Of a DNA stretch of 64,000 nucleotides, positions 16,649 through 34,713 are shown piece after piece. The position numbers were made by a program, and so were the translations under genes. The DNA is taken from NCBI RefSeq assembly GCF_001742145.1, contig NZ_CP015749.1:2542001-2606000 (forward strand). The letters run 5' to 3'. Positions within the stretch are counted from its first letter, which is position 1. Every line of letters starts with the position of its first letter. The DNA is from Pectobacterium parmentieri. Its GTDB lineage: Bacteria > Pseudomonadota > Gammaproteobacteria > Enterobacterales > Enterobacteriaceae. The notes beneath the pieces are model-generated. The model saw only the letters and a list, made by a program, of their open reading frames with translations, was not told the origin of the DNA and did not search any database.

Positions 16649-16723
16649 GTCCCCGTAGTTAAACGGATATAACAAGCCCCTCCTAAGGGCTAGTTACTGG
16701 TTCGATTCCAGTCGGGGACACCA
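16649..16723 (+). tRNA. argW: tRNA-Arg (CCU)
   Basis: 75 nt with acceptor stem GTCCCCG/CGGGGAC, discriminator A and encoded CCA. The D-arm region is GTAGTTAAACGGATATAAC. The anticodon loop CTCCTAA gives anticodon CCU, reading AGG. The T-loop is TTCGATT. Sequence and synteny match E. coli argW, a known prophage attachment site. The 3' end is duplicated at 34684-34713, and the tRNA is left intact by the insertion. Confidence 0.97.
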
Positions 16724-16736
16724 TTCACACTTCTCA
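16707..16736 (+). repeat. attL: 30-bp direct repeat within the argW 3' end
   Basis: The repeat starts TCCAGTCGGGGACACCA and ends TTCTCA. Its first 17 bases are the 3' end of argW including CCA. It is identical to 34684-34713 over 30 bp, and the flanks differ on both sides. Confidence 0.93.
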
Positions 16737-16837
16737 CAACGTCTACTCAAGTCAATAAAACCCAGTCATACCAAGCCCTAACGCTAAATGTCATTATCTC
16801 AACGTCTACTACAATCTATTGCAATCAACACATTTTA

Positions 16838-16887
16838 GGGGGTACATTTGGGGGTATTCCGTGTTCGGTCTAAAAGAGATACCCCCA
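16838..16887. promoter_or_regulatory. Candidate integrase arm sites, left end
   Basis: GGGGGTA at 16838 and TGGGGGTAT at 16849-16857 lie in direct repeat with 12-bp spacing. An inverted copy, ATACCCCC, lies at 16880-16887 directly before the integrase start. The same 12-bp-spaced pair recurs at the right end (34604-34624). Two copies of AACGTCTACT also lie nearby, at about 16739 and 16800. The arm-site role is inferred. Confidence 0.6.
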
Positions 16888-16888
16888 G

Positions 16889-18103
16889 ATGAAGTTAAAC
16901 GCTCGTCAAGTCGATACAGCCAAACCCAAAGATAAGCCCTATAAGCTGGCTGACGGTGGCGGTTTATATCTGCTGGTCAATACCAACGGTTCGCGATATT
17001 GGCGGCTAAAGTATCGGATTGCAGGTAAAGAAAAGTTGTTGGCGGTGGGGGTATACCCAGATGTCTCTTTGGCTGATGCCAGATCAGCGCGAGATAAAGC
17101 AAAAAAAACGCTGGCCGCTGGTGGTGATCCATCTGAAAACAAAAAAGATGAAAAAGAGTCACTCAAGACACAGATAAAGAACACGTTTAAAGAGATCGCT
17201 TTGGAATGGATCGCCAGTAAAGAAAAAAAATGGTCTGCTGGATATGCCAGTGAAAACGTCGTGTTACTAACTAATAATGTTTTTCCCAAACTGGGAGATC
17301 GCCCGATAGCGGAGATTAAACCGCTGGAGCTATTGGAAATCCTCAAACGGATAGAAAACCGTGGCGCAACTGAGCAAGCCAGAAAGGTGCGCATGCGGTG
17401 TTCTGAAGTTTTCCGCTATGCGATCGTTACTGGACGGGCGAGTTATAACCCAGCCCCTGACCTAATCAGTGCGATGCAAGGGCACGAGTCAAAGCATCAC
17501 CCCTTCTTGATAACAAAAGAACTGCCTGCTTTCTTCACCGCGTTATCTGAGTATTCAGGTAGTGCGCTGGTGGTACTCTCTGCCCACCTTCTCATTCTTA
17601 CTGGCCTGCGTAATGGCGAACTGCGCGGTGCCTTATGGCAAGAAATTGATACCGAAAACGCTCTATGGGAGATCCCCACCGAACGCATGAAGATGCGCCG
17701 CCCTCACCTTGTGCCATTGTCCAGCCAGGCACTGAGCCTCATAGAGCAAATCAGGGAAATAACGGGTAACTACCCTCTGATGTTCCCTGGCAGAAATGAT
17801 TCTCGTAAAACCATGAGCGAAGCCAGTATCAACCAGGTGTTTAAGCGAATTGGATATACCGGCAAAGTCACCAGTCACGGCTTTCGCCACACCATGAGTA
17901 CCATTCTGCACGAACAGGGTTACAACACTGCATGGATTGAAACCCAGCTCGCCCATGTCGATAAAAACTCTATCCGTGGCACCTATAACCACGCTCAGTA
18001 TCTGGATGGACGCAGGGAAATGCTTCAGTGGTATGCCGACTATATGGAAGCATTGGAGAACGGCGGTAATGTGGTTCATGGCTCGTTTGGGAAACGTGCA
18101 TAA
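16889..18103 (+). CDS. P4-type tyrosine recombinase integrase
   Basis: 404 residues. The N-terminal DUF4102-type arm-binding domain begins MKLNARQVDTAKPKDKPYKLADGGG. The core-binding domain spans about 95-195 and the catalytic domain about 205-385. Catalytic residues are visible: Arg in LTGLRNGELRG, Lys in ERMKMRRPHLVPL, HxxR in SHGFRHTMST, and His/Tyr in LAHVDKNSIRGTYNHAQYL. It should recombine the 30-bp repeat in argW. It lies 165 bp from the tRNA, reading inward. An inverted arm-type site abuts its start, so integrase may repress its own promoter. Confidence 0.96.
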   Translation: MKLNARQVDTAKPKDKPYKLADGGGLYLLVNTNGSRYWRLKYRIAGKEKLLAVGVYPDVSLADARSARDKAKKTLAAGGDPSENKKDEKESLKTQIKNTFKEIALEWIASKEKKWSAGYASENVVLLTNNVFPKLGDRPIAEIKPLELLEILKRIENRGATEQARKVRMRCSEVFRYAIVTGRASYNPAPDLISAMQGHESKHHPFLITKELPAFFTALSEYSGSALVVLSAHLLILTGLRNGELRGALWQEIDTENALWEIPTERMKMRRPHLVPLSSQALSLIEQIREITGNYPLMFPGRNDSRKTMSEASINQVFKRIGYTGKVTSHGFRHTMSTILHEQGYNTAWIETQLAHVDKNSIRGTYNHAQYLDGRREMLQWYADYMEALENGGNVVHGSFGKRA

Positions 18104-18162
18104 CTGGATGGATAGACAGTTATAAAATACCTTAGTAGACTACTGTAGACGAATAAAGAATA

Positions 18163-18218
18163 GGCTATGTCTAGGTTGATCACCGAAAACCCGCACACCT
18201 CTGTGGGCTGGCATAGCC
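18163..18218. other. Structured intergenic segment after int
   Basis: GGCTATG (18163-18169) pairs with CATAGCC (18212-18218). Inside it CCCGCACA pairs imperfectly with TGTGGG around a short loop. No T-run follows, so it is not an obvious terminator. It may be a structured RNA or a DNA site in the int-18248 gap. Confidence 0.35.
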
Positions 18219-18247
18219 GCCGAAATTAGAGGGCGTGAGGTGGCGTT

Positions 18248-18577
18248 ATGCTAGACATCGCTGAAGTACTTAAAGCGCGAGAAAGTGAGTTTGTTAGTTT
18301 GAGAGAGTTAGTTACACGTATTCGTTTGCAACAGCCACATGTCAGTGAATCCCAAATTGCAGATTTTCTTTATATAGAAAATTCTAATGGTGATCTTCCT
18401 GAATGGGTTCAACAAGGTATAGCGGGTACTATTGAGCCTACATACACTGATAATGATTATGATGGGGATCCTTCTTTAATATCGCTTCTCAAGGCCATTC
18501 GCGAGGAAGGATATATGCCAGAAGTTACGCCACCACCTGAACCGCCAATGGATTTCGACGACGATATTCCATTTTAA
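18248..18577 (+). CDS. Small protein ending in an SSB C-terminal tip (SSB-Ct mimic)
   Basis: 109 residues, not recognised as a whole. Residues 1-60 look helical (SLRELVTRIRLQQP, SESQIADFLYI), possibly winged-helix-like. The last residues, PPEPPMDFDDDIPF, include MDFDDDIPF, identical to the terminal nine residues of E. coli SSB. That tail is the docking site for PriA, RecO, RecQ, exonuclease I, HolC and others. There is no OB fold, so this is not SSB. The tail implies contact with host replication or repair proteins. It lies just upstream of a gene with a coiled coil, in the element's early region. The function is inference; the tail identity is seen directly. Confidence 0.75.
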   Translation: MLDIAEVLKARESEFVSLRELVTRIRLQQPHVSESQIADFLYIENSNGDLPEWVQQGIAGTIEPTYTDNDYDGDPSLISLLKAIREEGYMPEVTPPPEPPMDFDDDIPF

Positions 18578-19274: not shown

Positions 19275-19472
19275 ATGGCTCAGTCATTAATAAGATTCGC
19301 TGAAGTACAAAAACGCACTGGCTACAGTAAGGCATGGTTATACCGCCTTATGAAAGAACAGCGCTTCCCCACCGCTATTAAGATTGGTTCTCGTTCGATT
19401 GCTTTCGTTGAAAGTGAAGTTGATGAATGGATTAATCAGCGCATCGCAGAGTCTCGCGGGGAGGTTGCATAA
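19275..19472 (+). CDS. AlpA family transcriptional regulator / excisionase
   Basis: 65 residues, full-length AlpA: LIRFAEVQKRTGYSKAWLYRLMKEQRFPTAIKIGSRSIAFVESEVDEWI, a MerR-like winged helix. In P4-like elements AlpA/Vis proteins activate or repress early promoters and assist excision. It follows GTTACGAGGTAAAT and overlaps the next gene by one base (TAATG). The upstream palindromes make it a candidate regulator of its own operon, or a target of another regulator. Confidence 0.92.
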   Translation: MAQSLIRFAEVQKRTGYSKAWLYRLMKEQRFPTAIKIGSRSIAFVESEVDEWINQRIAESRGEVA

Positions 19473-19915
19473 TGCAAATAAAAAACGCCCGTGCTACCGA
19501 GCGTCAACTTGAACAAATAAAACCTGCTGCGCAAACTAATATTGCTGGTGGACATAATAGCCAGCCAGAGCGGATAAGGCCAGTCCCTAAGAAGCACCGC
19601 GCACGAATTTTCATGCTGCGTTCCGGTACTGGCGGCTTTACTGAGAATGACATTCTCCTACATTGCCGACTTTCTTCTGGGAGGAACTATCCGTCAGAAT
19701 TAGAAAGACTGCTTGATATTCGGTTAGAGCGAATTGACGAGCCAAACACGGACGGGATCGGCAGTCACTATCGTTATCGGTTTGCAAAGCGCGATGATAT
19801 TTCTCGCGTCATTCAACTGGTAAATGCCAATGCCGATATTAACGGCCACCAGCCGCTTACCCAGCAAGAAATTAACCATATCATTAGCCTGTACCCGGAT
19901 TACGCCGCCAGCTAA
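19472..19915 (+). CDS. Hypothetical protein, possible winged-helix DNA-binding
   Basis: 147 residues, translationally coupled to alpA. After a polar N-terminus, residues 45-105 (RARIFMLRSGTGGFTENDILLHCRLSSGRNYPSELERLLDIRLE) look like a winged helix typical of small phage regulators, followed by HYRYRFAKRDD. I recognise no named family. Its place between alpA and the antirepressor-like gene suggests an early regulatory role. Confidence 0.7.
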   Translation: MQIKNARATERQLEQIKPAAQTNIAGGHNSQPERIRPVPKKHRARIFMLRSGTGGFTENDILLHCRLSSGRNYPSELERLLDIRLERIDEPNTDGIGSHYRYRFAKRDDISRVIQLVNANADINGHQPLTQQEINHIISLYPDYAAS

Positions 19916-19928: not shown

Positions 19929-20726
19929 ATGAAATCAAAAAATAATGACCTCAACGGTCAGGGATTCGCTCACCCTGAAAACAGCCAGAGCGATATTTAC
20001 AGCAATGACTTTGCCGCGATTGTCCCTGTTATTTCTGGTCGAATTTGTGGGCGTGAAAATAATATTGTTAGCGCCAAATCATTGCACACAGCGCTAGGCG
20101 CAGGGCGTGTATTTTCCAGTTGGTTTAATGGCCGAGTTTCTCAGTATGGTTTTGTGAAAGGAACAGATTTTGACCAATTAACACCGGAACGGGTGGAAAT
20201 TACCGGAGCTGGTCGCCCTGAGGTTGATTACGCCATCACTTTGGATATGGCAAAAGAATTGGCAATGGTTGAGCGCAACGAGAAAGGCCGCGCTGTTCGT
20301 CGTTACTTTATCCAGTGCGAAGAAGCCCTACAGCGTAGCGTGCCGGAAGTGGCCGCACGTTTCAGACGCCAGCTAAAAGCCCGATTGACCGCTGCGAATT
20401 ACTTCAAGCCGATGTGTGCCGCATTGGAAATCGCCCGCTCTGAACTGGGCAAGAAAACGCTACCGCACCACTACACCACCGAGAGCAACATGATCGCCCG
20501 CCTGGTATTGGGTGGCCTAACGGCAAAGGATTGGGCGCGGGTTAATGGTATTGCAGGAGAGCCACGCGACAGCATGAGCGCGGATCAGTTGGAATACCTT
20601 TCCTACCTTGAACAGACCAACATCACGCTGATCGAACTGGGGCAGGATTATCACCAGCGAAAAGCTGAGTTAACCCGACTGTCTCAACGCTGGATGGCAA
20701 AACGTTTGGGGGGGAACCATGCGTAA
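19929..20726 (+). CDS. AntA/AntB-type antirepressor family protein
   Basis: 265 residues. Residues 28-135 match the AntA/AntB domain: SAKSLHTALGAGRVFSSWFNGRVSQYGFVKGTDF, DYAITLDMAKELAMVERNEKGRAVRRYF and CEEAL. In phage P1 this domain antagonises a repressor. The C-terminal half (about 140-265) is a separate helical domain with ARLVLGGLTAKDWARVNGI, not recognised. It starts after CGGAGCC. As satellites often use antirepressors to respond to helper phage, this is a candidate induction factor; the target is unknown. Confidence 0.87.
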   Translation: MKSKNNDLNGQGFAHPENSQSDIYSNDFAAIVPVISGRICGRENNIVSAKSLHTALGAGRVFSSWFNGRVSQYGFVKGTDFDQLTPERVEITGAGRPEVDYAITLDMAKELAMVERNEKGRAVRRYFIQCEEALQRSVPEVAARFRRQLKARLTAANYFKPMCAALEIARSELGKKTLPHHYTTESNMIARLVLGGLTAKDWARVNGIAGEPRDSMSADQLEYLSYLEQTNITLIELGQDYHQRKAELTRLSQRWMAKRLGGNHA

Positions 20727-20816
20727 TGCTTCCACGTGGTTAATGAACAATGCGCCGGCTGTATACGAAAAGCACCCACATCATTTCGCCGACGCAATTG
20801 TGCGTGCGCTGGCTGG

Positions 20817-20990: not shown

Positions 20991-21010
20991 ATCAGTGTTT
21001 CTCCGTTTTA

Positions 21011-21093
21011 GGTGTTCAACAGTATGGCATGAAAAAAGTGATTGTAAACGCTTGACGTGTTCAACACCTTGCAATAGGCTGGTGTTCAACACC
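21011..21093. promoter_or_regulatory. Three GGTGTTCAACACC near-palindromic operators
   Basis: Copies at 21011-21021 (3' arm degenerate), 21057-21068 and 21081-21093, with a half site GGTGTT at 21103. They fill the gap between the minus-strand RHH gene and the plus-strand Icd-like gene, so one regulator could govern both directions. The second to third copies are 24 bp apart start to start. Confidence 0.65.
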
Positions 21094-21182: not shown

Positions 21183-21374
21183 ATGGCTGATTCACAGTCT
21201 ACCCAAACTCACCCCAAATTTATATGGCGCTTTCTGGCGCTGGGCATGTCGTCTCGCCGCATTATTCGCATTGTTGCCACTACCGAACGCGAAGCACGGG
21301 AAAAATCCCCATCTGGCTGTGTCATGGTTTTCGCTGGCCGCCTACCCGTTCAGGAGGTGCGCTATGTTCGATAA
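21183..21374 (+). CDS. Icd-like (Ash family) host cell division inhibitor-like protein
   Basis: 63 residues after a strong AGGAG. The pattern THPKFIWRFLALGMSSRRIIRIVATTEREAREKSP..CVMVFAGRLPVQEVR is that of the Icd-like/Ash proteins common in P4-like elements and P1. Icd of P1 blocks cell division; most homologues are untested. It opens a chain of five small overlapping genes leading to the primase. It overlaps the next gene by 11 bases. Confidence 0.8.
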   Translation: MADSQSTQTHPKFIWRFLALGMSSRRIIRIVATTEREAREKSPSGCVMVFAGRLPVQEVRYVR

Positions 21375-21917: not shown

Positions 21918-22114
21918 AGGGTGGGATTGAAACAAAACTGACCATGCTCAGGGGCATTCTTGACCTGATGACCTGCTGCGACGATTCAACCGAACTTGAC
22001 ACACTCCGCAATGTCGCCTTAACCGCGCTGGTGGTGGTCGCTGAAATCAATGATGAGTATTGCCGTGCGCATTGCGGTGATAAACGTAACAAAGCCAAGA
22101 GAACCGCAGCATGA
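21914..22114 (+). CDS. Small hypothetical protein
   Basis: 66 residues, MKGGIETKLTMLRGILDLMT.., with two adjacent Cys (TCCDD) and a basic tail DKRNKAKRTAA. It is joined to both neighbours by 4-base overlaps (ATGA), so it belongs to the primase operon. No recognised family. Confidence 0.65.
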   Translation: MKGGIETKLTMLRGILDLMTCCDDSTELDTLRNVALTALVVVAEINDEYCRAHCGDKRNKAKRTAA

Positions 22115-22740
22115 ACAACATCATTTCTTTACCCCTGTCACTGGAACAGGAACGCGCCCCGTATATCGATGTTTCCCCTGATGGTGTCTGCCTGATGGCG
22201 CTGGACGGTGAAGGCGAATACGAAGTAGCAACGAGCCACCCGTTTGATTATGCCCTTTCCAGCCTGAATCGCGGCCATTATGACCATGACCCGTTAAATG
22301 GGGTGCGAGTGATCCATGCGCTGGCACAGGCTCAGGAAAAGGGCTATTTCCAGCCTGATGATCAGCAAAATTTGGAGATGTGGCGCTGGCTGGTGGCTTA
22401 CGAATTCATGAAAGAGCAGCAGCGCAACGGTGCGCAAAGTACCACAGAGAACAGCGGCCATAGTGAGGTTATCTACCGAGGAAAACACGGCACAATGCGC
22501 ATTTATCCCGATACGGAACGTTTTGCAATGGCGAACAATATCGAAGGCGCATTGATTGGGAAATTTGGCCGTGAACAAGGCACACGTAATGCCATTTTGT
22601 TTTATCAGGGAATGCTCGATCATCAAAGCACAGTGCCTGGACTGTCCGAGATGGGGCGGCAAACGCTGGCAGATATGCACGATGAATTTATTCAGATGTG
22701 TAATGCCAATGAATTACCACCCACACCAACGGCGCACTGA
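22111..22740 (+). CDS. Hypothetical protein upstream of the primase
   Basis: 209 residues, cytosolic, no recognised family. The middle (MWRWLVAYEFMKEQQRNG) is helical. The C-terminal half (GKFGREQGTRNAILFYQGML, LADMHDEFIQMCNAN) is also helical. It overlaps the preceding gene by 4 bases and ends 10 bases before the primase start. An auxiliary role in replication is possible from position only. Confidence 0.65.
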   Translation: MNNIISLPLSLEQERAPYIDVSPDGVCLMALDGEGEYEVATSHPFDYALSSLNRGHYDHDPLNGVRVIHALAQAQEKGYFQPDDQQNLEMWRWLVAYEFMKEQQRNGAQSTTENSGHSEVIYRGKHGTMRIYPDTERFAMANNIEGALIGKFGREQGTRNAILFYQGMLDHQSTVPGLSEMGRQTLADMHDEFIQMCNANELPPTPTAH

Positions 22741-22750: not shown

Positions 22751-25453
22751 ATGCGTAATATCGATTTTATCCGCAAGGTATCCGCCGTTGCTACTGGTCG
22801 CTGGCCTGATGTACTTTCTCAATTGGGGATCGAGGTTCCCCATCATCCAACAACGCTTACCCCTTGCCCGGCCTGCGGCGGTACCGATCGCTTTCAGTTC
22901 GATAATCTGGAAGGGCGCGGGACATGGCATTGCCGCCACTGTGAGCCGGAAGCCGGTGACGGGCTGGCGCTGGTGATGAACGTTCGCCAGTGTGCCGCAA
23001 TGGATGCGGCGCAACTGGTGGCAGAGGTGTTGGGTATCGATGCCCGAACATGGGAACAACCCACCCGCCAGAGTGAACCGCCAGCGGAAAATAACGGGCG
23101 CTCTCCTTCCGTTGACGAAAAAGCCCAACGCTTTACCCCGCGTCTGGCGAAGCTAACCACGCAGGCACAGCCGGGAGAGTCTGCATATCTGGAAGGAAAA
23201 GGGTTAACGGGGTTTTCGTATCCGCTGCTGTCTGATGGCACTCTGCTGCTGGCGCTACAGGACGCGAACAGCACCACTACCGCCGCGCAGACGATAAAAC
23301 CCGATGGTACTAAGCGACTGGTGACCGATTCCGCCAAACGTGGTGCGTATCACATTGTTAACGCCTCAGAACAGCCCGACACGGTGATTATCGGTGAAGG
23401 GCTGGCAACGGCGTTAAGCACTCACCTGATGCGTCCTGAGGCGCTGACCATCGCGGCTATCGATGCGGGCAACATGGTGCCGGTGGCAAAGGCGATGCGT
23501 GCTCTGTATCCCAATGCGCAAATCATCCTTGCTGCGGATAACGACATCGTGGCAGGTAAACCGAACGGCGGGAAGGACTGGGCAGAGAAAGCCGCCCGTA
23601 AGGTGAGCGGCTGGGTAGCCCTGCCGCCTACCGATGAAAAAGCAGACTGGGACGATTACCGCCAGCAATTCGGATTGGATGCCGCTACACAGGCGTTTAC
23701 TGAATCGCTGTATCAGCTACAGGCCGATGTGCCGGCTGACGAAAAACAGAGTTGTGATGACCCGCTGAAGCCGCGTGTAGAAAGCCGCAAAGATGGCGTT
23801 TTCTGGATCACGCCCAAAGTGGATAAGGTCAGCGGTGAGGTGATCAACAACGAAAGCTGGCTATGCTCACCGCTAGACGTGATCGGCAGTGGCCGTGACG
23901 ACAGCGATCAGTTTTTGATACTGCGTTGGCATGTTGCTGGGCGTAAAACGCCTGTCACCGCTGGGTTACCACTGGCCGATGTTGGTGAGCGGGAAGGATG
24001 GCGCACACTGAAAGCCGGTGGCGTGACCGTGACAACAAAAACCTTTCTACGCGCCATTCTGGCCGACTGGCTACAGAATCAGGGGAAAGCCGAACTCTGG
24101 CAGATCAGCCACACCACTGGCTGGCAATGTGGCGCTTACATCATGCCAGATGGGGATATTATCGGTTCACCGCTTCAACCCGTCTTGTTTCGGGGGCGCA
24201 GTGCTGCTGCTGGCGGCTATGCGGTTAAAGGATCGGCGGCAAGCTGGCAGGACGGCGTAGCCAAACTCGCACAGGGTAACCCCTCCATGATGACCGCGAT
24301 CGCCGCCGCCTTAGCCGCCCCCCTAATCGGCCTGTCTGAATCAGACGGTTTCGGCCTGCATTTCTATGAACAATCCAGCGCAGGGAAAACGACTACCGCC
24401 AATGTCGCTACCAGCCTTTACGGTGATCCCGATGTGTTAAAACTCACCTGGTACGGCACAGCGTTGGGGATTGCTAACGAAGCCGAAGCGCACAATGACG
24501 GCCTGCTGCCACTCGATGAGGTGGGACAAGGCAGTGATGCGCGTTCTGTCTCCACCTCAGCCTATACACTGTTTAACGGTGTCGGGAAGTTGCAAGGCGC
24601 ACGGGATGGCGGCAACCGTGAGCTAAAACGCTGGCGCACCGTGGCGATCAGCACTGGTGAAATGGACATGGAAACCTTTCTGACCAGTGCAGGCATAAAA
24701 TCCAAAGCCGGTCAGTTGGTGCGCTTGCTTAATTTACCACTGGAAAAAGCGCAACAGTTCCACGGATATAAAAGCGGTAAAGATCATGCCGATGCGCTGA
24801 AAGCAGCGTATCGTGTCAATCATGGCGCGGCTGGCCGTGAATGGATACGTTACCTTGCGCATCACCAGAAAGAGGCGATTCAGGCTGTCAGAGAAGCTGA
24901 AAGCCGCTGGCGATCGCTTATCCCTTCCAACTACGGTGAACAGGTTCACCGTGTAGCAGAGCGTTTCGCCATTCTGGAAGCGGCATTGCTGGTGGGGAGA
25001 ACGATCACGGGATGGAATGAGCAGGAATGTCGTGATGCCATACAACACTCCTTTAATGCCTGGTTGCGGGAGTTTGGCACAGGCAACAAAGAGCATCGGC
25101 AAATTGTCGAACAGTGTGAAGCGTTCCTGAATGCACATGGCCGGAGTCGGTTCGCCCCATACCCTTACGACCCTACCAGCCTGCCTATTCGGGATTTGGC
25201 CGGATACCGTGACGACAGAGGCAAGCACGATGATGCGCCGATGATTTTCTATACCTTCCCTGCGGCATTTGAGGGCGAGATCGCCAAAGGGTTTAATGCG
25301 AAGCAATTTGCGGAGGTATTAAAAACCACGGGGATGTTGACCCCGCCCACCAGCGGCAGAGGGTTTCAGCGTAAATCCCCCCGCATTGATGGACGACAGT
25401 TTAACGTGTACGTGATCCACTACATGCCAGAGGAAGAAGCCACGCAGGAATAA
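22751..25453 (+). CDS. P4 alpha-like primase-helicase (zinc finger, TOPRIM, DUF927)
   Basis: 900 residues. The N-terminal primase zinc finger is CPACGGTDRFQFDN..GTWHCRHC (residues 37-65). TOPRIM-type blocks are VIIGEGLATALSTHL and AQIILAADNDI (about 215-265). A DUF927 helicase domain spans about 350-700 with Walker A EQSSAGKTTTANVATSL and Walker-B-like DGLLPLDEVGQG. P4 alpha both primes and unwinds at its own origin. Here an iteron cluster lies directly downstream (25476-25735), so the protein probably recognises those repeats. It is the longest gene of the early operon. Confidence 0.93.
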   Translation: MRNIDFIRKVSAVATGRWPDVLSQLGIEVPHHPTTLTPCPACGGTDRFQFDNLEGRGTWHCRHCEPEAGDGLALVMNVRQCAAMDAAQLVAEVLGIDARTWEQPTRQSEPPAENNGRSPSVDEKAQRFTPRLAKLTTQAQPGESAYLEGKGLTGFSYPLLSDGTLLLALQDANSTTTAAQTIKPDGTKRLVTDSAKRGAYHIVNASEQPDTVIIGEGLATALSTHLMRPEALTIAAIDAGNMVPVAKAMRALYPNAQIILAADNDIVAGKPNGGKDWAEKAARKVSGWVALPPTDEKADWDDYRQQFGLDAATQAFTESLYQLQADVPADEKQSCDDPLKPRVESRKDGVFWITPKVDKVSGEVINNESWLCSPLDVIGSGRDDSDQFLILRWHVAGRKTPVTAGLPLADVGEREGWRTLKAGGVTVTTKTFLRAILADWLQNQGKAELWQISHTTGWQCGAYIMPDGDIIGSPLQPVLFRGRSAAAGGYAVKGSAASWQDGVAKLAQGNPSMMTAIAAALAAPLIGLSESDGFGLHFYEQSSAGKTTTANVATSLYGDPDVLKLTWYGTALGIANEAEAHNDGLLPLDEVGQGSDARSVSTSAYTLFNGVGKLQGARDGGNRELKRWRTVAISTGEMDMETFLTSAGIKSKAGQLVRLLNLPLEKAQQFHGYKSGKDHADALKAAYRVNHGAAGREWIRYLAHHQKEAIQAVREAESRWRSLIPSNYGEQVHRVAERFAILEAALLVGRTITGWNEQECRDAIQHSFNAWLREFGTGNKEHRQIVEQCEAFLNAHGRSRFAPYPYDPTSLPIRDLAGYRDDRGKHDDAPMIFYTFPAAFEGEIAKGFNAKQFAEVLKTTGMLTPPTSGRGFQRKSPRIDGRQFNVYVIHYMPEEEATQE

Positions 25454-26681: not shown

Positions 26682-26721
26682 CCGTTGCCTTCTATAAAAA
26701 CATGCGCTAATTTACCGAAAG

Positions 26722-26761
26722 ATACCGGAATATGGCTTAAAAACCACTCCGGTATTTTTTT
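26722..26761 (+). terminator. Rho-independent terminator after the DUF2971 gene
   Basis: ATACCGGA/TCCGGTAT form an 8-bp stem with an 18-base loop, followed by a T-run (26755-26761). It separates the cargo gene from the late-type cassette. Confidence 0.75.
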
Positions 26762-26829
26762 GCCTAAAATCTGCCTAACTCCTAAGCCTGTATGGTTCGC
26801 CCAGCAGGCTTTTTTCATGGATACATACG

Positions 26830-27354: not shown

Positions 27355-27635
27355 GCGAGAAAGTATTACGTGAGAAAGCGGTGTGTGAAAAGGTTGGCAT
27401 TAACAGGATTACGCTACGGCACATGTGGGAAAGCGACCAATTCCCCGCACCGTTCAGCCTTACCGGAAGTCGTGCCATTGGCTGGCGCGAAGCTGATATC
27501 GACGGGTGGATCGTCAAACAGTCCAGAGCGAAACGCCGTGCGGCCGTTATCGCTCGTCAAGTTTGGGGAAAACCAGAGCCGACCATGCCAGAAGCAATCA
27601 GCATGTTGGCACAACCTCTTTTTGAGCAGGAGTAA
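27351..27635 (+). CDS. Second AlpA/Nu1-like winged-helix protein
   Basis: 94 residues: VLREKAVCEKVGINRITLRHMWESDQFPAPFSLTGSRAIGWREADIDGWI is an AlpA/MerR-like winged helix. It is only loosely similar to the AlpA at 19275. It lies inside the virion-like cassette with a 4-base overlap to the upstream gene. Lambda Nu1, the small terminase DNA-binding domain, has the same fold, so a packaging-recognition role is as possible as activation of the late cassette. The C-terminal 30 residues are not recognised. Confidence 0.75.
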   Translation: MSEKVLREKAVCEKVGINRITLRHMWESDQFPAPFSLTGSRAIGWREADIDGWIVKQSRAKRRAAVIARQVWGKPEPTMPEAISMLAQPLFEQE

Positions 27636-27640
27636 ACACG

Positions 27641-27937
27641 ATGTCATACGGTTTAATTGATATTGCGGCGCAGACGCGACAGCAAGGGTTACAAGGTATG
27701 CAACAGGCGGCAGAGCTGGAGCAGCAGCGCGAATCCGCTAATGAGCAATTAAAGGCACAGCAGAAAATGGCAGCCAACCAGATGAAAGGCACGATGGCGG
27801 GAATGGGCGCGGCTGGCGGTGCGGCTATTGGTGCCTCATCTGCCGCGATGGGCGCAACGTATGGCTCATGGGCTGGTCCGGTTGGCATGGGCGTAGGCGC
27901 AGCAGTTGGCTTGATTGCTGGCTCACTATTTTCATAA
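27641..27937 (+). CDS. Glycine-rich membrane protein, ejection-type
   Basis: 98 residues. A glutamine-rich helix (residues 10-45, DIAAQTRQQGLQGMQQAAELEQQ..) is followed by a Gly/Ala-rich hydrophobic hairpin (about 50-98) with repeated GxxxG spacing, GMGAAGGAAIGASS and GVGAAVGLIAGSLF. This resembles small podovirus proteins released first to form the membrane channel for DNA. It lies 14 bases before the large ejection-like gene, which supports that reading. The function is inferred. Confidence 0.65.
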   Translation: MSYGLIDIAAQTRQQGLQGMQQAAELEQQRESANEQLKAQQKMAANQMKGTMAGMGAAGGAAIGASSAAMGATYGSWAGPVGMGVGAAVGLIAGSLFS

Positions 27938-27950: not shown

Positions 27951-30900
27951 ATGGCTGATGTAAGAGGATTAGCGGACGGCTTCCTTGCCGGATTCAATAC
28001 GATGGATAACGCGCTACAGCGTCGGGAAGAATCGGAGCTACGGCGCTTTATGTTGGATCAGCAGCAGAAAAATGCCGACAGAAACTATGACATGGCGGTC
28101 AACACCCAGAACTGGCAGAAGTCTACCGATGAGCGCGATTACAATAATCGGGTTCAACAACAGAAAATCGGGCAGGAAAACAAGGTTCAGGATCTCGCAC
28201 TGGACAAACGCCGCGTCGATATCTCAGCGGGGAGTCTGGCCGTTTCTCAGGCGAGTGAGAAACGACAGCAGCGGCAGCAGCAACTACAGGAGATGACCAC
28301 GCGCTACGGGAATCTGGTTGAGGGTATTACGCTCTCTGCCCGTGCCGGAGACAAAGACGGCGCAACTCATCTGTGGTCACAACTTCCCCCTGACGCACAG
28401 CAATTTTATACAGCGCTAAATCCTGACTTCCTGACCAACTCCAACGCCGCACAGAGCGCCCTATACCTTAAATCACGCGCTCCGGCGCTCATGTCTGGGC
28501 AAATCAATCCTGATGACCCGAAAGTGATCGCAGCCACAAACAGTATTCTCCAGCCTGAATTATCGATTCGCACTGGCGAACTGGCCGACGATGGCAAGCC
28601 AATGAAAGCGCGGGAACTAACGCATATCATGCCCGATCCGCGCGGTGGCGATAACTTTTACTTTGGCGTGACCGTGACGCGAGAAGATGGCTCTACGTAT
28701 CAAGCTCCGATCACACGTAACCGCTCTACCGATCCCAATGACCCACCGTTGCCGCTATCCAGCGAACAAATTATGAGGACGCTAGCACAGCGCTCCCATT
28801 TGCTGGGGATGGCGCACCCCAACCTTGAAGATGCTGATCCGTATGCCGACCCAGATCCGAACGCGCCTTTTATGCCCGTACAGGATTACATGCAGGTGCC
28901 GCAGCATGTCCGTGTTCAGCAGATTACCGCAGGAAAAACGCCCGCCGATATTGTTAATGACTACAACGCTTCAGGTATGGAGCGGCAAAAATACTTGGGC
29001 GAAATGAAAAAACAGCAACAAGTGTCTACAGATGGCAAGTTGCAAAGGCAGGACGTGATTGAAACGTATGACCAGCAAATCAAGACCATTGACGGTCTGC
29101 TTACCGATCCGGGATTTAGCACCTCTGTAGGCGCTGGATTAGGTGTAGTGACCAAGCATATTCCAGGCACTGACGCAGCCAGTTGGGATACTCGCTTTAA
29201 GCAATTTGGAGGACAGAACTTCCTTAGTGCGATTCAGGCATTGCGTGGCATGGGGGCGCTGTCTAACGCTGAAGGGGAACAAGCCCGTATTGCCGTGTCG
29301 GGATTAAGTGCTAGCCAGTCCGAAGAAGAATTTATCCGCCGTGCCAATGACCTAAAAACCTTTCTGACGGATAAACGAGATCGTTATGCGACGGCTTACG
29401 GGATGAACACCCATCAAGGGCAGGAGCAAGGCGAGCTGAAAACATTCGGCGGCAAACCCTTTTCTAATGAGCGTGTGGCCAACGCCAGCAAATGGGCGAA
29501 AATGCCAGGCGCGACGGTGGAAAAAGTGGAAGGTGGTTATGCTGTTCGCCTGCGGTCTGCTGGTGGTCAACACCAGCCTATTCCACCAAACCAGCCTGAT
29601 AACACAACGGTAGCAGGCGCATCTGCACAACCCAACAATCCAGCAATACCGCAAACGGCGATCGACATGCTGCGCCAGCGACCAGATACCGCCCACCTGT
29701 TCGATCAGACCTTTGGACAAGGTGCCAGTCAGCACTATCTTGGAGGGCAACCTTCCCCAAAAGATGAAGGGCTGATCGGTGGTGGTCAGCCCGAACTTGC
29801 CCCAGACGTGCCGCAATATGCCCAGAGTATGAAGAAATCCCCCCAACAACCCACTCCTGCCACCGTAGAGCCGACCATTCAGGAACGCATCATGACGCAG
29901 GTCAGACAGTTGGGCATTCATCCTGAAATGGGCGCGGCCAGAGAATTCAGCACAGTGGACTGGAATTCGATGAAATCCAATCTGAAACACCTGAAGCCGG
30001 AACAGCAGCAGCAGATCGCCCAACAGATAGCGAACAAATTTGGCGGCAGCACCAGACAGGACGAGCAAGGGCGGCTCTTTGTGACTGTCCCTAGCGGGGA
30101 ATACCTGCTTAACGGCGACGGTATGACGAGGGAAGCCGTAGAAGGGTTCGCCAGCACGTTACAGCCACAGCCACAGCCACAGCCACAGCCACAGCCACAG
30201 CCACAGCCACAGCCAGCGAGTGTTGGCGCTCCAGCAGAGGAAGCCAACCCTTACGCACAGTTTGTTACCCCTTCTTCTCCGCAAGACATACCAACCACCA
30301 GCCAAGAGGAAAATCCCTACGCGCAGTTTGTCCAGCAGACGCCAGAACCACGCAGCTTACTGCAAGAGGGCTTACTTGGTGTGTCTGAAGCGGGTGGCGC
30401 GATTGCACAGGCGGCGGTAGATACGGTTAATATCATCCCGATGATGGCTGATTCGTTCGCCAGTAGCGGGGCATGGATCGGTAGTAAGCTGGGGCTTGGT
30501 GATGGAACCTATGCGCCGTCACCTCGCTTGTCATTGCCAGATGGTGTCGGCCCACAGACGCAAGGCGGGCAGATTGCCGCTGATGTCTTGCCATTCTTGA
30601 TCAACCCGGCATCACGCGCCGCCCCCACTGTTGGCAACCTAGCCGAACGTGTGGCTAATCTGGCTGCACGATTAGGTGCTGAAAGCGCTATCGGCTCAGC
30701 GGCACAGAATAGCGGAAATCAGAACATCGAGCAGGCAACCAACGAAACACTACAAGATTTAGCGGTTAACGCGGGGATCGGTGGTGTTGTGCGTGGTGCT
30801 GGCAATGTCATTGGTGCAGGTTATCGCGCCGCACGTGGAACAATCGCCCCAGAAGCACAAGCGGCTATCGATTATACGAAGCAAAATAACGCCCCGCTGA

Positions 30901-32096
30901 TGACCAGCGACATGATGCCGCCGCAAACCTTTGTCGGTCGCTCAATTCAGGCCAACGCAGAAAAAATCCCAGCCGTGGGTACGGGACAAATGCGTGCGGA
31001 TCAGCAAATGGCACGCTCCCGACTGGTGGATGAATTTTCACAGCGATACGGTGTTTACTCCGCTGCTGATGTGGTTCAGAGCATCGATAGGCAGAACTCA
31101 GCCGTTAAAAGCGCGGCTAAAAAACGCTTTAATGAAATTAAAGACAAAATGGATGCAAGAGGAGTAATTGACACCACGCGTTCTGTTTCTGTTATTGATG
31201 AAGAAATTGCCCGCCTATCAAGCTATGGTGGTACAAAAGATAAAACCACCATCAATAGGTTAACAGAATATCGGGATGAACTGGCAACGGGAAAACTCCA
31301 TTTTAGTTTACTGGATGGACAGCGAACCCAATTCCGCACAGCCGTAAAAGATCAACGAATAGATATGTTACCCGCCTCTACACTTGCAGTGAATCGTATT
31401 TATACTGCTATGACCAAAGATTTAAACCGAGCGATAAGCAAAGAATTTGGCGAAAAAGAGGCACTCCGCTGGATGCACGCTAAAGCTATCTGGGCTGGAG
31501 AAGCTGATAAAGTTCAACATACCAAAATAAAGAAAATTCTGGAAAGCGGCCATATTACGCCGGAAAGCGTCAATGCTATGTTGTTCGATACTAAAAAAAG
31601 CCAGGTGGAGATATTATATAATTCCTTGGATAATAGAGGCCGCCAGTCCGCCCGCGCCGGATTAATTGCTAAAGCGCTGGAGGGCGAGGCTTCTCCTGAT
31701 CGTTTCTTGCTAAGGCTTAACAAATACTCCGCGAATACAGGCATATTCTTTAAAGGTGAAGAGCGGCAATATCTTACTGGCTTGCAACGTTATTTGGAGA
31801 GTACACAACGTGCTTCTCAGGCGTCAGTGACCTTGCCTAATGGGCAGGTGGTGGCACAAGCTGGTTCCGTTATGGGACCGGGGTTAGCGGGTGTGTTTGG
31901 TGGTCCCGTACTCGCCGCAAAGGTAATCGGCACAATGGGAGCCTATGGCGCGGTTGGGCGAATATACGAAAGCCAACCGGTACGGGATGCGCTGCTAAGA
32001 CTGGCGAACACACCCAAAGGAAGCACGGTATTTGAACGTCACCTTGAAGCGGTAAACCGTGCGATTACGGCTACCGCTCAAGGGATGGTGGAATAA
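27951..32096 (+). CDS. Large DNA-ejection / internal virion-like protein
   Basis: 1381 residues. The start ATG 27951 follows GGGGATT. The N-terminal 120 residues are a Gln/Arg-rich coiled coil. Residues about 150-300 hold a phage domain with VTVTREDGSTYQAPITRNRS. Residues about 370-490 match a block common in virion proteins (RFKQFGGQNFLSAIQALRG..LSNAEGEQARIA). A low-complexity linker follows with nine Gln-Pro repeats and two ENPYAQFV/ANPYAQFV motifs. A hydrophobic Gly/Ala-rich segment and a helical C-terminus complete it. Size and architecture fit a protein carried in a capsid and ejected with DNA. No capsid, portal or terminase gene accompanies it. Confidence 0.72.
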   Translation: MADVRGLADGFLAGFNTMDNALQRREESELRRFMLDQQQKNADRNYDMAVNTQNWQKSTDERDYNNRVQQQKIGQENKVQDLALDKRRVDISAGSLAVSQASEKRQQRQQQLQEMTTRYGNLVEGITLSARAGDKDGATHLWSQLPPDAQQFYTALNPDFLTNSNAAQSALYLKSRAPALMSGQINPDDPKVIAATNSILQPELSIRTGELADDGKPMKARELTHIMPDPRGGDNFYFGVTVTREDGSTYQAPITRNRSTDPNDPPLPLSSEQIMRTLAQRSHLLGMAHPNLEDADPYADPDPNAPFMPVQDYMQVPQHVRVQQITAGKTPADIVNDYNASGMERQKYLGEMKKQQQVSTDGKLQRQDVIETYDQQIKTIDGLLTDPGFSTSVGAGLGVVTKHIPGTDAASWDTRFKQFGGQNFLSAIQALRGMGALSNAEGEQARIAVSGLSASQSEEEFIRRANDLKTFLTDKRDRYATAYGMNTHQGQEQGELKTFGGKPFSNERVANASKWAKMPGATVEKVEGGYAVRLRSAGGQHQPIPPNQPDNTTVAGASAQPNNPAIPQTAIDMLRQRPDTAHLFDQTFGQGASQHYLGGQPSPKDEGLIGGGQPELAPDVPQYAQSMKKSPQQPTPATVEPTIQERIMTQVRQLGIHPEMGAAREFSTVDWNSMKSNLKHLKPEQQQQIAQQIANKFGGSTRQDEQGRLFVTVPSGEYLLNGDGMTREAVEGFASTLQPQPQPQPQPQPQPQPQPASVGAPAEEANPYAQFVTPSSPQDIPTTSQEENPYAQFVQQTPEPRSLLQEGLLGVSEAGGAIAQAAVDTVNIIPMMADSFASSGAWIGSKLGLGDGTYAPSPRLSLPDGVGPQTQGGQIAADVLPFLINPASRAAPTVGNLAERVANLAARLGAESAIGSAAQNSGNQNIEQATNETLQDLAVNAGIGGVVRGAGNVIGAGYRAARGTIAPEAQAAIDYTKQNNAPLMTSDMMPPQTFVGRSIQANAEKIPAVGTGQMRADQQMARSRLVDEFSQRYGVYSAADVVQSIDRQNSAVKSAAKKRFNEIKDKMDARGVIDTTRSVSVIDEEIARLSSYGGTKDKTTINRLTEYRDELATGKLHFSLLDGQRTQFRTAVKDQRIDMLPASTLAVNRIYTAMTKDLNRAISKEFGEKEALRWMHAKAIWAGEADKVQHTKIKKILESGHITPESVNAMLFDTKKSQVEILYNSLDNRGRQSARAGLIAKALEGEASPDRFLLRLNKYSANTGIFFKGEERQYLTGLQRYLESTQRASQASVTLPNGQVVAQAGSVMGPGLAGVFGGPVLAAKVIGTMGAYGAVGRIYESQPVRDALLRLANTPKGSTVFERHLEAVNRAITATAQGMVE
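30162..30215 (+). repeat. CAGCCA hexanucleotide microsatellite (9 copies)
   Basis: Nine perfect tandem copies of CAGCCA inside the large ejection-like gene encode a Gln-Pro linker. Slippage would change linker length by two residues per unit without breaking the frame. Confidence 0.95.
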
Positions 32097-32117: not shown

Positions 32118-32960
32118 TCAGAATATCGTTTTAAGGGAAAAACCAACTATGCAGGCGGCTATTATAGTCAATGCGGTTAATATCTTCTTTGATAACTCTG
32201 TTAATTCGTTCAGTTTCTTGTCTGTTTCAGTGGGTTCGGCTTCATCATCAAACTCTGTAGGTGTATCGTCTATAACCTCAACCGATTCAATGGTGAAATT
32301 CTTTTTCTCTATATTCAGAGAAGAAATAAACGAAAATCTTTTTACTTCACTGTTTGGATTAACAATGATGTCAGGCAACTCACTATACATCTCAGAGTAG
32401 CCTGGTATCCATAGATTGACAATTGCAGAATTATATCCCTTATCGACTTTATTAATAAGAAGGGTAAAATCTTCTTCTGGAATGTAAAAATTAAACCCGA
32501 GTATGATGGGGTTTTCTGTGGGGGAGTCTGCATAAATCATGGGTCGGAAATAGCCAGAAAATTCCTTGAAGTAACCCATCTCATCGCTGGGGTATAGGTT
32601 AATCTCTATCTTTTTAATGAGTTGCACGGCGAATCTATCTTCAAGATCAAGGCTATCTAGGTTATCAGTATAGACATAACGGTTAAAGCTCTCACTATCT
32701 GCTTCTATTTTTATACAATGATTGCTTTCTTTCTTTAGTTCTACTAGGTCATTGGGTCTTTCGCCAGAATCTAAATTTAACGTTTTTATTATTTTATTGT
32801 CTTTATATGCTGAATAACTCGAAATGGCTGTTAATTTCGACGATGTTAATCGTAAGTGAGATAATTCATATCTATGGGAAATGCCTTTACCATCTTGTTC
32901 TGTAGTTATAATTGAGGCTGTTTTTCTATAAAAAACGTCTCCATTGAAAATCATTTTCAT
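32118..32960 (-). CDS. C-terminally membrane-anchored protein, probable cargo
   Basis: 280 residues, no family recognised. The N-terminal 220 residues look like a soluble beta-rich domain. Residues 225-255 are acidic (DDTPTEFDDEAEPTETD), and the tail LSKKILTALTIIAACIVGFSLKTIF is one transmembrane segment. It starts after AAGGA and is the only long minus-strand gene in the late half of the element. It is strikingly AT-rich and inserted between two virion/late-regulation genes, like a moron cargo gene. Exclusion or defence is plausible but unsupported by any motif. Confidence 0.75.
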   Translation of the reverse strand: MKMIFNGDVFYRKTASIITTEQDGKGISHRYELSHLRLTSSKLTAISSYSAYKDNKIIKTLNLDSGERPNDLVELKKESNHCIKIEADSESFNRYVYTDNLDSLDLEDRFAVQLIKKIEINLYPSDEMGYFKEFSGYFRPMIYADSPTENPIILGFNFYIPEEDFTLLINKVDKGYNSAIVNLWIPGYSEMYSELPDIIVNPNSEVKRFSFISSLNIEKKNFTIESVEVIDDTPTEFDDEAEPTETDKKLNELTELSKKILTALTIIAACIVGFSLKTIF

Positions 32961-33002
32961 TCCTTATTGTTGAATAATATATCCAATAAAAATGAGGTCT
33001 TA

Positions 33003-33797
33003 ATGTCCAGCATAATCGAACACACCTTACGTTTACACGAAGCCAGAAGCGCCAGCGCGTTTACCTCATCCTGCCGTGGTGGCGGTAAAATAGGCCGCGA
33101 TCAGTATCTGGGAGCGTTATCTACCGCCAGCTTACACTATCCCGTAGGCTATGACCTGTTCATGCTCCGATATAAATCTGATACCCCAGCCAATGAAAGA
33201 TTGCAAGCAGCGGTTAAAGAGTGGGTACATTTACAACGGAACACACCGGATCACGCTGTAGCAGCCTGCCTACTGGCTATCAATCTGGCAGTCTACCGCC
33301 CATTACCTCCACAACTTGCCCGACGCGCCAGCTTGTTACGCCGCTATGGTGCCAAGGCTGTTCGCACCAAGAACCTGATCAGCGGCCTCAATGCAGAGAA
33401 AAAACGCCTTGAGAACAAAACCAGCAGCAAGATAACGCAGGAACGCGCCGCCACGCTCGACAATCAGATAGTGTTGGAGAAGGCTTCACTCAGGCAGTGG
33501 TCAGAACAGGAAGCCGGTAATAGCGATGTATGCCCATGCTGTAAAGGTTCAGGTGAACAAATCAAAAAGTCTGGCAGCCATTGCCCTGAATGTGGTGGCG
33601 ATGGCCGACTGGTATCTACAATCGACGATATCAGAAAATCGCTATCTGCAACGGGCGTGAAAGTTAATGAAGAAAGCTGGCGGGTTGACTATGTGCCGTT
33701 GGTCAATAGCTGCCTTCACTGGCTGGATGTGGAATATCACCAGGCTATCGAACAGTTGAAGCGAAAAATCCGACAAGAAGAAAATGCGCTGGTGTAA
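33003..33797 (+). CDS. Phage antitermination protein Q-like
   Basis: 264 residues from ATG 33003 (GAGG upstream). A longer TTG-started frame would add 12 residues. The central zinc finger CPCCKGSG..CPECGGDGRL (about residues 178-205) and the helical flanks match lambdoid/P22-type Q antiterminators. Those load on RNA polymerase at the late promoter and allow read-through of late genes. In this element no lysis or morphogenesis block follows, only one zinc-ribbon gene. It may act in trans on a helper phage or on a short late transcript. Family call moderately sure. Confidence 0.72.
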   Translation: MSSIIEHTLRLHEARSASAFTSSCRGGGKIGRDQYLGALSTASLHYPVGYDLFMLRYKSDTPANERLQAAVKEWVHLQRNTPDHAVAACLLAINLAVYRPLPPQLARRASLLRRYGAKAVRTKNLISGLNAEKKRLENKTSSKITQERAATLDNQIVLEKASLRQWSEQEAGNSDVCPCCKGSGEQIKKSGSHCPECGGDGRLVSTIDDIRKSLSATGVKVNEESWRVDYVPLVNSCLHWLDVEYHQAIEQLKRKIRQEENALV

Positions 33798-33965
33798 CTG
33801 CGAAAAAAACTTGCGCAGATCTGCGAATTCTACGGTTCGCAAAACGAAACGTACTGGAATTCGCAAACGGCCTGCAACCCTTGCCATGTCTGCATCTATC
33901 CATAACGTGCAATTCGCCGTTGCGTAGGCGTTCGCAGATCTTTTCGTATTGATCATGGGGGAAAA
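33798..33965. other. TTCGCA-rich repeat region between Q-like and zinc-ribbon genes
   Basis: 168 bp with repeated TTCGCA/TGCGAA: TGCGAA near 33800 and 33823; TTCGCA near 33836, 33859 and 33930. It includes the palindrome CGCAGATCTGCG (33816-33827) and paired TGCGAATTC / GAATTCGCA. In lambdoid phages the DNA next to Q holds the late promoter, and satellites may keep packaging sites near an end. Which applies is unknown. Confidence 0.5.
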
Positions 33966-34511
33966 TTGCGCAATCGAACACGGCGTTACACCACATCACT
34001 TTCTTTCATTGGGCTGGATGCCCTCACCCTCCTGAAAAACGTTTCCGTTAACCTTCACATACCCATCATCCCCGCAACCTTCACACGGTGTGATGACGGT
34101 TTTACTGTTACCCTCAACGGAAACACGTTTCCCCTCTTTCTCGTCACTACACAAGCGAGTTACGGCACACGCTATTGGTATCAATGCCCCCAATGCGGAA
34201 AGCGTTCGACCAAGCTGTACGTTGATTTAGATAGGCTCACCTGCCGAACGTGCTCCGGCCTTTGCTATGCCAGCCAAAGTGAAAGCCAGTTAAAACGTTG
34301 GCGGCGGTTGGTACACATGGAAAATATGGCAAAGTTGGAACTGTGGCCGGATTACTGGAATCAGATAGCGCGGGTGGGGTTTAGCATGTCCAGACTTCCA
34401 AAACCCGCAGGTATCCGAGGCGACACGTTCCGCAGGAAATATCTGGAACTGATTCGGCTCAGGGTTAAATGTCTGCAAGCCCACCAGCTTTTAGTCAATG
34501 GAAAGCGCTGA
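33966..34511 (+). CDS. Zinc-ribbon protein at the element's right end
   Basis: 181 residues from a TTG start with GGGGGAAAA just before it. The zinc ribbon CPQCGKRSTKLYVDLDRLTCRTCSGLCY lies at about residues 75-102, followed by a basic helical region ESQLKRWRRLVH. Such proteins occur near phage late regulators, but I recognise no defined function. It is the last gene before attR. Start choice is uncertain because no ATG fits the upstream part. Confidence 0.65.
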   Translation: MRNRTRRYTTSLSFIGLDALTLLKNVSVNLHIPIIPATFTRCDDGFTVTLNGNTFPLFLVTTQASYGTRYWYQCPQCGKRSTKLYVDLDRLTCRTCSGLCYASQSESQLKRWRRLVHMENMAKLELWPDYWNQIARVGFSMSRLPKPAGIRGDTFRRKYLELIRLRVKCLQAHQLLVNGKR

Positions 34512-34603
34512 TGATGTGTAGTTTTTCTGTTTTGTGGGCTACTTTGTGCATTGGCTCTTTTGCGAATAAAAAACAACCAAAAACACCGCACACAAAACAA
34601 CAT

Positions 34604-34624
34604 GGGGGTATCATTGGGGGTATA
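34604..34624 (+). promoter_or_regulatory. Candidate integrase arm sites, right end
   Basis: GGGGGTA at 34604 and TGGGGGTAT at 34615-34623 have the same 12-bp spacing and connecting CATT as the pair at 16838-16857. The matching pair at both ends of the element supports an integrase-binding role. Confidence 0.6.
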
Positions 34625-34683
34625 TATAAAAACACAATAAAAATAAAATATTAATAATCAAATAATTAAAAATCACGTCACAC

Positions 34684-34713
34684 TCCAGTCGGGGACACCA
34701 TTCACACTTCTCA
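34684..34713 (+). repeat. attR: second copy of the 30-bp argW repeat
   Basis: Identical to 16707-16736 over 30 bp. Only the last 17 bases of the tRNA are represented, so no second tRNA gene is present. It marks the right boundary of the element. Confidence 0.93.

Follow-up and report, generated by a model that had tools for sequence, protein, structure and literature searches.

Satellites steal capsids, and a satellite-like element in Pectobacterium parmentieri raises the question of why such an element should bring along a DNA ejection protein of its own. The element measures 18.0 kb between its terminal repeats and sits within argW, in the stretch of 64,000 nucleotides analysed here (NCBI RefSeq assembly GCF_001742145.1, contig NZ_CP015749.1, positions 2,542,001 to 2,606,000 of the forward strand; hereafter the window). 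An initial annotation, made from the letters and their open reading frames (ORFs), had described it as a satellite that packages itself in a helper's capsid but encodes its own entry proteins. Our analysis points to a phage-inducible chromosomal island (PICI)-type satellite with its own DNA-injection module, likely used inside the virions of a podovirus helper, a reading to which we assign a probability of about 0.7. The reported lack of capsid, portal, terminase and lysis genes held up, as none of the 20 ORFs scanned against Pfam and PHROGs gave such a match; these scans included only some of the small ORFs at 20719–21549, and divergent genes could escape them.

The ejection cassette and its N-terminal 32 residues

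The genes that carry the argument are listed below. The resident prophage named there is the one other locus with related ejection genes in the window genome (G000:C1, about 1.755–1.808 Mb), and G282 is a genome of another genus.

25866..26681, plus strand: DUF2971 protein (Pfam), 50% identical to a late-operon protein of the resident prophage (blastp)
26704..26815, plus strand: block with two hairpin-and-T-run structures, 78% DNA identity with the prophage (alignment and fold), also in G282
26830..27354, plus strand: phrog_482 protein, 44% identical over 116 amino acids (aa) to the product of the prophage gene adjoining the major capsid gene
27351..27635, plus strand: second AlpA-like protein, inside the ejection cassette (Pfam AlpA 5.7e-9)
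27641..27937, plus strand: phrog_594 small virion protein of 98 aa, 88% identical to its counterpart in the resident prophage (82% counting a 7-residue gap)
27951..28046, plus strand: first 32 codons of the ejection gene, likely a helper-docking tag, with 32 of 32 residues as in the prophage protein
27951..32096, plus strand: fused ejection protein of 1381 aa with a phrog_601-like N-terminus, a P22 gp20-like middle and a P22 gp16-like C-terminus
33000..33797, plus strand: Q-like antiterminator (phrog_127, 4.7e-8), 35% identical to the prophage Q and 85% to the G282 Q

The virion-ejection-like pair and the Q-like antiterminator of the initial annotation are thus borne out by family matches. Its statement that only head-internal proteins had been kept did not survive, since the phrog_482 homologue of a head-module gene and Q are present as well. 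Within the ejection protein, the phrog_601 domain is followed by the gp20-like part (phrog_2534, 4e-21) and the gp16-like part, a "DNA transfer protein" (phrog_770, 1e-128); the C-terminal portion additionally matches phrog_29117 (2.5e-59), which PHROGs files under head morphogenesis.

Residues 1–32 are identical to those of the prophage ejection protein in all 32 positions, while 13 of the 32 codons differ synonymously. From residue 33 to 280 identity amounts to about 27%, and each of the eleven 32-residue windows that follow the first one holds 5 to 14 identities. The ejection protein is hence a chimera of a prophage-identical N-terminus and a divergent remainder. When eight satellite ejection proteins were compared with seven prophages, the N-terminus was found to be matched by lineage. 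The five Pectobacterium and Dickeya satellites share 29–32 of 32 residues with the two same-genus prophages and 27–28 with the prophage of G290, against 15–20 with the other four prophages. The three other satellites, two of them named Serratia, share 27–28 of 31 residues with the G176 prophage and 23–26 with that of G086, against 18–19 with the same-genus prophages and 18–21 with the prophages besides G176 and G086. Residues 33–280 are 19–30% identical in all satellite–prophage pairs and display no such pairing. The first 32 residues therefore look as a helper-specific assembly tag would be expected to look, and likely serve as one. A further stretch of about 50 aa is present in two copies in a 2435-aa protein of the prophage and in one copy at residues 490–544 of the satellite ejection protein; the 46-aa stretch common to both proteins found no match in phage records.

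The prophage carries terminase, portal, major head, phrog_482 and phrog_594 genes and a 446-aa phrog_601 protein, all supported by PHROGs, and its 2435-aa protein (G000:C1:1755095–1762402) gave PHROGs matches to DNA methyltransferase and DarB-like antirestriction proteins. Its integrase, repressor and scaffold were assigned by position and sequence by eye, and its Q by similarity to the satellite Q. A DUF2971 gene lies beside the same terminator block in both elements (G000:C1:1779237–1780082 in the prophage), resembling an accessory gene common to the two that brings its own boundary sequence. The window and G282 both have this hairpin block of about 110 bp ahead of the cassette; in the prophage it is located about 0.4 kb behind Q and beside DUF2971, with shorter copies occurring elsewhere; our terminator scan accepts loops of 3–8 bases only and therefore did not list the two hairpins. 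Together with the likeness of the two Q proteins, the common block suggests that late expression of the satellite may be timed with that of its helper, and the resident prophage represents the predicted helper type.

Recurrence and selection

The same gene order was found at the same tRNA-Arg in another genus, as a satellite with its own entry proteins would lead one to expect. Among 295 family genomes, 23 of which gave any match, the ejection protein is present over its length, at 78–81% identity, in one other genus (G282). The order there reads integrase, alpA, a 139-aa protein, ant, primase, phrog_482, the second AlpA, phrog_594, ejection protein, Q and a 182-aa protein, and it leaves no room for head genes. 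Its right repeat, at 21085, is only 11 bp long and directly follows the 182-aa gene, the same placement as that seen in the window. Counterparts of the DUF2971 gene and the minus-strand ORF are missing, and Q is intact with 264 aa. Between the two elements, the ratio of nonsynonymous to synonymous substitution rates (dN/dS) ranges from 0.03 to 0.35 over 12 genes in 14 pieces, with dS near saturation for some of them; the two pieces of the ejection gene gave 0.056 and 0.163.

A search of 5.8 billion proteins, in which only the 7991 candidates sharing most words were scored, recovered the fused protein in eight clusters, namely three from Pectobacterium, two from Dickeya, two from Serratia and one other. 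A closely related full-length prophage, which would have marked the element as a deletion derivative, did not emerge, as none of 283 matching phage records covers 80% of the fused protein; the genomic context of the other homologues from the protein search (P0001–P0004 and P0006–P0008) was not part of this check. The 18 plasmid records with partial matches likewise stay below 80% coverage. Scans of genome contigs and viral contigs returned no relative, a weak negative given that the genome scans missed relatives known from the protein search. DNA of the whole element found some match in 722 of 5426 E. coli genomes, none of them covering 80%.

The PICI-type chassis and the gp20/gp16 swap

Apart from the cassette, the element comprises the features below.

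16707..16736, plus strand: attL core, a 30-bp exact direct repeat overlapping the 3' end of tRNA-Arg(CCT)
16889..18103, plus strand: tyrosine integrase (Pfam Phage_integrase 5.9e-25), 77% identical to the EcCIMP1 integrase (blastp)
18248..18577, plus strand: 109-aa protein with an acidic tail like that of single-stranded DNA-binding protein (SSB) at its C-terminus (phrog_7364, E 0.0076, last 14 residues only)
19275..19472, plus strand: AlpA regulator (Pfam AlpA 8e-19), 71% identical to the EcCIMP1 AlpA
19472..19915, plus strand: chassis protein of 147 aa, which over 105 aa is 65% identical to its EcCIMP1 counterpart
19929..20726, plus strand: AntA/AntB antirepressor (Pfam AntA 1.3e-23), 59% identical to that of EcCIMP1
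21183..21374, plus strand: 63-aa protein (phrog_1743, transcriptional repressor, 1.2e-22), Icd-like by analogy with the EcCIMP1 annotation
22111..22740, plus strand: 209-aa chassis protein (phrog_1515), 40% identical to its EcCIMP1 counterpart
22751..25453, plus strand: primase/helicase with Zn ribbon, TOPRIM and DUF927 (Pfam, phrog_1139), 65% identical to that of EcCIMP1
25475..25736, no strand: iteron array and putative replication origin with 10 TTGGTTCA on both strands and an inverted repeat
32118..32960, minus strand: protein of 280 aa that ends in a hydrophobic C-terminus, matches no family above cut-off and has no counterpart on the G282 map
33966..34511, plus strand: protein of 181 aa with CxxC motifs, 90% identical to its G282 counterpart
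34684..34713, plus strand: attR core, a 30-bp exact repeat with 16707–16736

The repeats at both ends, the integrase, AlpA, the antirepressor and the iterons were all called correctly in the initial annotation, while its SSB shrinks to the weak match in the C-terminal tail. Extended to 35 nt, the att copies are 94% identical, and the tRNA-Arg CCT gene (argW, 16649–16723) is the sole tRNA that ARAGORN detects in the window. All scanned ORFs but the one at 32118–32960 (19 of 20) point in one direction. That minus-strand gene directly behind the ejection gene could be an accessory gene of the exclusion type. Ten copies of TTGGTTCA lie on both strands within 430 bp directly 3' of the primase gene, whereas 500 single-base shuffles averaged 0.02 copies and never gave more than 1, and G282 and the locus L067 hold 12 and 10 copies. 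Promoter-like sites are enriched at 25400–27700 (11 versus a shuffle mean of 5.0) and near or below shuffles elsewhere in the scan.

This anatomy follows the description of Gram-negative PICIs, as far as the consulted part of PMC6092414 gives it: integrase, AlpA and replication gene run in one direction, a putative iteron origin directly 3' of the replication gene is kept in G282 and L067, and a specific att site goes with a size near 15 kb, although this last trait is not exclusive to PICIs. It has no lysis, capsid, portal or terminase match but does carry virion ejection proteins, and is for that reason filed as PICI-like; the verified PICI EcCIMP1, with its ejection-type genes, departs from the PICI description in the same way.

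P4-like satellites are characterised by psu, sid, delta and a full-length alpha primase. The window element resembles them in integrase family, AlpA and primase-type replication, but its primase is of the DUF927 type and P4 alpha aligns only with its residues 14–320 (34%), so that the P4-alpha likeness noted in the initial annotation applies to the N-terminal part only. No Psu, Sid or Delta family occurs among the Pfam matches. Membership in the P4 family was ruled out on these two grounds, and the element appears better placed with the PICIs. Capsid-forming PICIs (cf-PICIs), by definition, encode their own capsid, portal and packaging genes; none of the 20 scanned ORFs matched a major head, portal or terminase gene. 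They do share a related chassis, as in the locus L147, which combines a DUF927 primase with major head and portal genes and is probably a cf-PICI. A wholly separate class was dropped when EcCIMP1 was found to have the same chassis.

EcCIMP1, the PICI of E. coli MP1 with the podophage Kapi1 as helper, has the chassis and gene order of the window element at the identities listed above, and in both elements podophage ejection genes directly follow the primase. It differs in encoding separate P22-type gp14, gp7, gp20 and gp16 proteins, annotated as DUF2824 (gp14), gp7-like, "phage DNA ejection protein" (gp20) and a lytic transglycosylase protein (gp16), and in being inserted at tRNA-Thr. In place of these the window element, at argW, combines phrog_482 and phrog_594 with a single fused protein that resembles a different podovirus type at its N-terminus, and it has Q in addition. 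Excision, circularisation and transduction of EcCIMP1 with Kapi1 are reported in the accessible text of PMC11773190 and require AlpA and integrase; Kapi1 itself is reported at argW in the literature at hand. The second AlpA of the window lies within the cassette, whereas that of EcCIMP1 is found at the far end of the element and is reported to substitute for the helper's excisionase.

Compared with Kapi1, the EcCIMP1 proteins are 84% (gp14), 57% (gp7), 26% (gp20) and 23% (gp16) identical. The PICIs L203 and L204 of E. coli and L201 of G383 are 97–98% identical to EcCIMP1 over 9.3–9.5 kb, until identity stops at the same base, in codon 54 of gp20, in all three comparisons. It resumes about 0.95 kb behind gp16 in two of them, while L201 stops at the contig end. 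The first 54 residues of gp20 are common to both types, and the two gp16 types lack similarity at E 0.001. In E. coli-type PICIs the gp20/gp16 module is thus sharply swapped with gp14 and gp7 kept. The stretch from primase through gp14 and gp7 to the gp20 start is present at no less than 80% cover (≥80%) in 227 of 5426 E. coli genomes; gp20/gp16 of the EcCIMP1 type occurs in 69 and the other type in 295, phage copies included.

Of 392 family genomes, 53 yielded the primase at E 1e-150 or better; within the genus, 21 of 25 genomes did so at E 0.001. We mapped 53 primase loci picked from the better matches; many lacked recoverable att repeats, and we claim no boundaries there. An injection-type component was identified in 18 of the 53 by PHROGs or direct homology: P22-type ejection genes in three (window, G282, L115), other podovirus internal or structural proteins in three (L071, L072, L117), tape measure or lytic tail proteins in nine (L068, L075, L122, L124, L128, L142, L145, L146, L149) and a baseplate hub alone in three (L070, L116, L143). 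Major head and portal genes occur in one locus, L147, and small-terminase matches in L068 and L137. In L071, L072 and L117 the same chassis is joined to two or three large proteins of the podovirus internal or structural type; a search with one query returned no matching resident prophage.

Proposed mechanism, rival explanations and known systems

The proposed mechanism starts with induction of the helper, which, by analogy with EcCIMP1, would trigger AlpA, excision from argW and replication from the iteron origin. The cassette of phrog_482, the second AlpA, phrog_594 and the ejection protein would be expressed along with the helper's late genes. The 32-residue tag and the similar 98-aa partner may then dock the ejection protein into the helper procapsid, where it would displace the helper's 446-aa ejection protein and 2435-aa internal protein; a chimeric virion is predicted from homology and the matched tag. 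After adsorption, the gp20/gp16-like body of the satellite, and not the helper's, would build the conduit across periplasm and inner membrane. The benefit could consist in access to cells that block the helper's conduit, above all helper lysogens, whose exclusion proteins may target these very proteins. Entry into helper lysogens seems to us the most likely motive; in general, getting past superinfection exclusion would be as good a motive as host-range widening, both being hypothetical.

Published work on P22, as covered by the available portion of PMC10883804, agrees with a satellite that substitutes an injection apparatus of its own for the helper's. Complete foreign sets of ejection proteins are tolerated in P22 virions and such hybrids are viable, and gp16 and gp20 of Sf6 function in P22 only when exchanged together; the joining of gp20- and gp16-like parts in a single polypeptide accords with a requirement that the two match. 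SieA, an exclusion protein of the P22 prophage, acts through gp16 and gp20, and in long-tailed phages some exclusion is overcome by changes in the tape measure protein (PMC10883804). The SieA and PLE data (PLE satellites are discussed below) agree with it as well.

Several observations weigh against this reading. Only one of four foreign full sets (HK620) escaped SieA exclusion and three stayed excluded (PMC10883804, as above), so a foreign set alone does not confer bypass. With gaps counted, the phrog_594 protein of the satellite resembles those of the prophage and of the G282 satellite equally (80 of 98 residues each; 82% either way for G282), and phrog_482, Q and DUF2971 could reflect simple capture of a helper late-gene block. 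The ejection gene of G282 is split into ORFs of 250 and 1091 aa, although a Dickeya copy of 1359 aa (P0004) is unsplit. For the elements in G342, G316 and G304 we saw no prophage in the same genome that carries a matching cassette, a weak negative based on one query protein that is only 31–34% alike for the G316 and G304 elements. In E. coli, L201, L203 and L204 hold one same alternative type (gp20 99% identical between L203 and L201, gp16 under the same accession in L203 and L204), so that two types are seen and not many, and two PICIs have an annotated frameshift in gp20 (L204) or gp16 (L205). Transduction of EcCIMP1 occurs at a low rate, and its authors view the cassette as a possible packaging module (PMC11773190, in the sections consulted). 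Finally, 34 of the 53 loci show no demonstrated injection or head component, with most late genes there lying outside the scan, so the module looks optional for the chassis.

Among the alternatives, interference holds up best, though we consider it unlikely: satellite ejection proteins in helper virions might impair injection, generally or into satellite-bearing cells, and act as a weapon or immunity factor. Retained docking segments would suit such a competitor, and satellites do attack tail assembly, as with PLE11 (Rta) and the Tai systems (PMC12987554 and PMC11364771, in the parts available). The large gp20/gp16 bodies under purifying selection, however, exceed what a decoy needs, and gp20 and gp16 are swapped together, just as function of the Sf6 proteins in P22 requires (PMC10883804).

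Distinctly improbable is a packaging or capsid-shaping module, in which the cassette would mainly steer satellite DNA into heads with phrog_482 as the working part. The authors of EcCIMP1 propose a packaging role for the equivalent genes and identified no structural genes, according to the accessible text of PMC11773190; phrog_482 is moreover a head-region gene, and one C-terminal match of the ejection protein is filed under head morphogenesis. Yet the gp20 and gp16 families act in ejection and the variation sits exactly there, while gp14 and gp7 fall within the 97–98% stretch. A fold search with the predicted phrog_482 model (predicted local distance difference test, pLDDT, 82; predicted template modelling score, pTM, 0.41) gave no match below E 0.001, the best PDB entry, 2hjq at E 0.078, being too weak to use.

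Passive cargo, that is late phage genes captured by recombination at common terminator blocks and devoid of any role, is very improbable: the block beside DUF2971 in both satellite and prophage would suit it, but dN/dS far below 1, eight homologue clusters and the lineage-matched tag do not. Least probable is a decayed podovirus prophage, rejected despite late genes and a terminator block resembling the resident prophage, because the same gene order recurs at the same tRNA in another genus under purifying selection rather than the relaxed selection and unconserved architecture expected of decay, the chassis is common with EcCIMP1 and has a PICI-type origin, and the recurrent fused protein reaches 80% coverage in no phage record.

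Returning to a satellite that injects its DNA through its own proteins, a broader generalisation can be offered only tentatively, at what we regard as somewhat below even odds. Enterobacterales PICIs might form one chassis with exchangeable injection modules, ejection proteins for podovirus helpers and a tape measure or baseplate hub for tailed helpers, in which a short tag at the N-terminus would follow the local helper and the body that crosses the membrane would be exchanged. The satellite would thereby decide how its DNA enters the next cell, above all past the helper's superinfection exclusion into helper-bearing cells. If true, the control exerted by satellites would extend beyond packaging to the step of entry. 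The Kapi1/EcCIMP1 pair makes it testable whether satellite ejection proteins replace those of the helper and decide which cells, lysogens included, can be entered.

In the open literature, with most subscription papers and preprints outside our search, we found no description of a helper-matched docking tag or of the gp20 codon-54 swap. For satellites whose genes encode ejection proteins, tape measures or chimeric tails, the sources at hand offer the PLE tape measures and EcCIMP1, besides putative tmp genes in cf-PICIs mentioned in a figure legend. The primase of the Pseudomonas satellite AH14b (16.8 kb) is distantly related to that of the window (29.6% identity across 84% of the query), and AH14b is thought to use a helper's capsid; it differs in that its own proteins were undetected in particles, and the available part of PMC4936722 names no structural genes for it. 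The closest parallel in principle comes from the PLE satellites of Vibrio cholerae, which, as the accessible text of PMC12987554 (2026) reports, themselves supply the tape measure, chaperone and hub for building tails. There, too, a satellite replaces the virion part that leads DNA into the cell and a chimeric particle results, although the lineage is unrelated, the helper is contractile-tailed, and the swap of tape measure protein, chaperone and hub was shown by experiment (PMC12987554). The window element, known from sequence alone, pairs podovirus ejection proteins with a helper-matched N-terminal tag and would, alongside the natural module swap in E. coli, represent the podovirus counterpart of the PLE tape measure.

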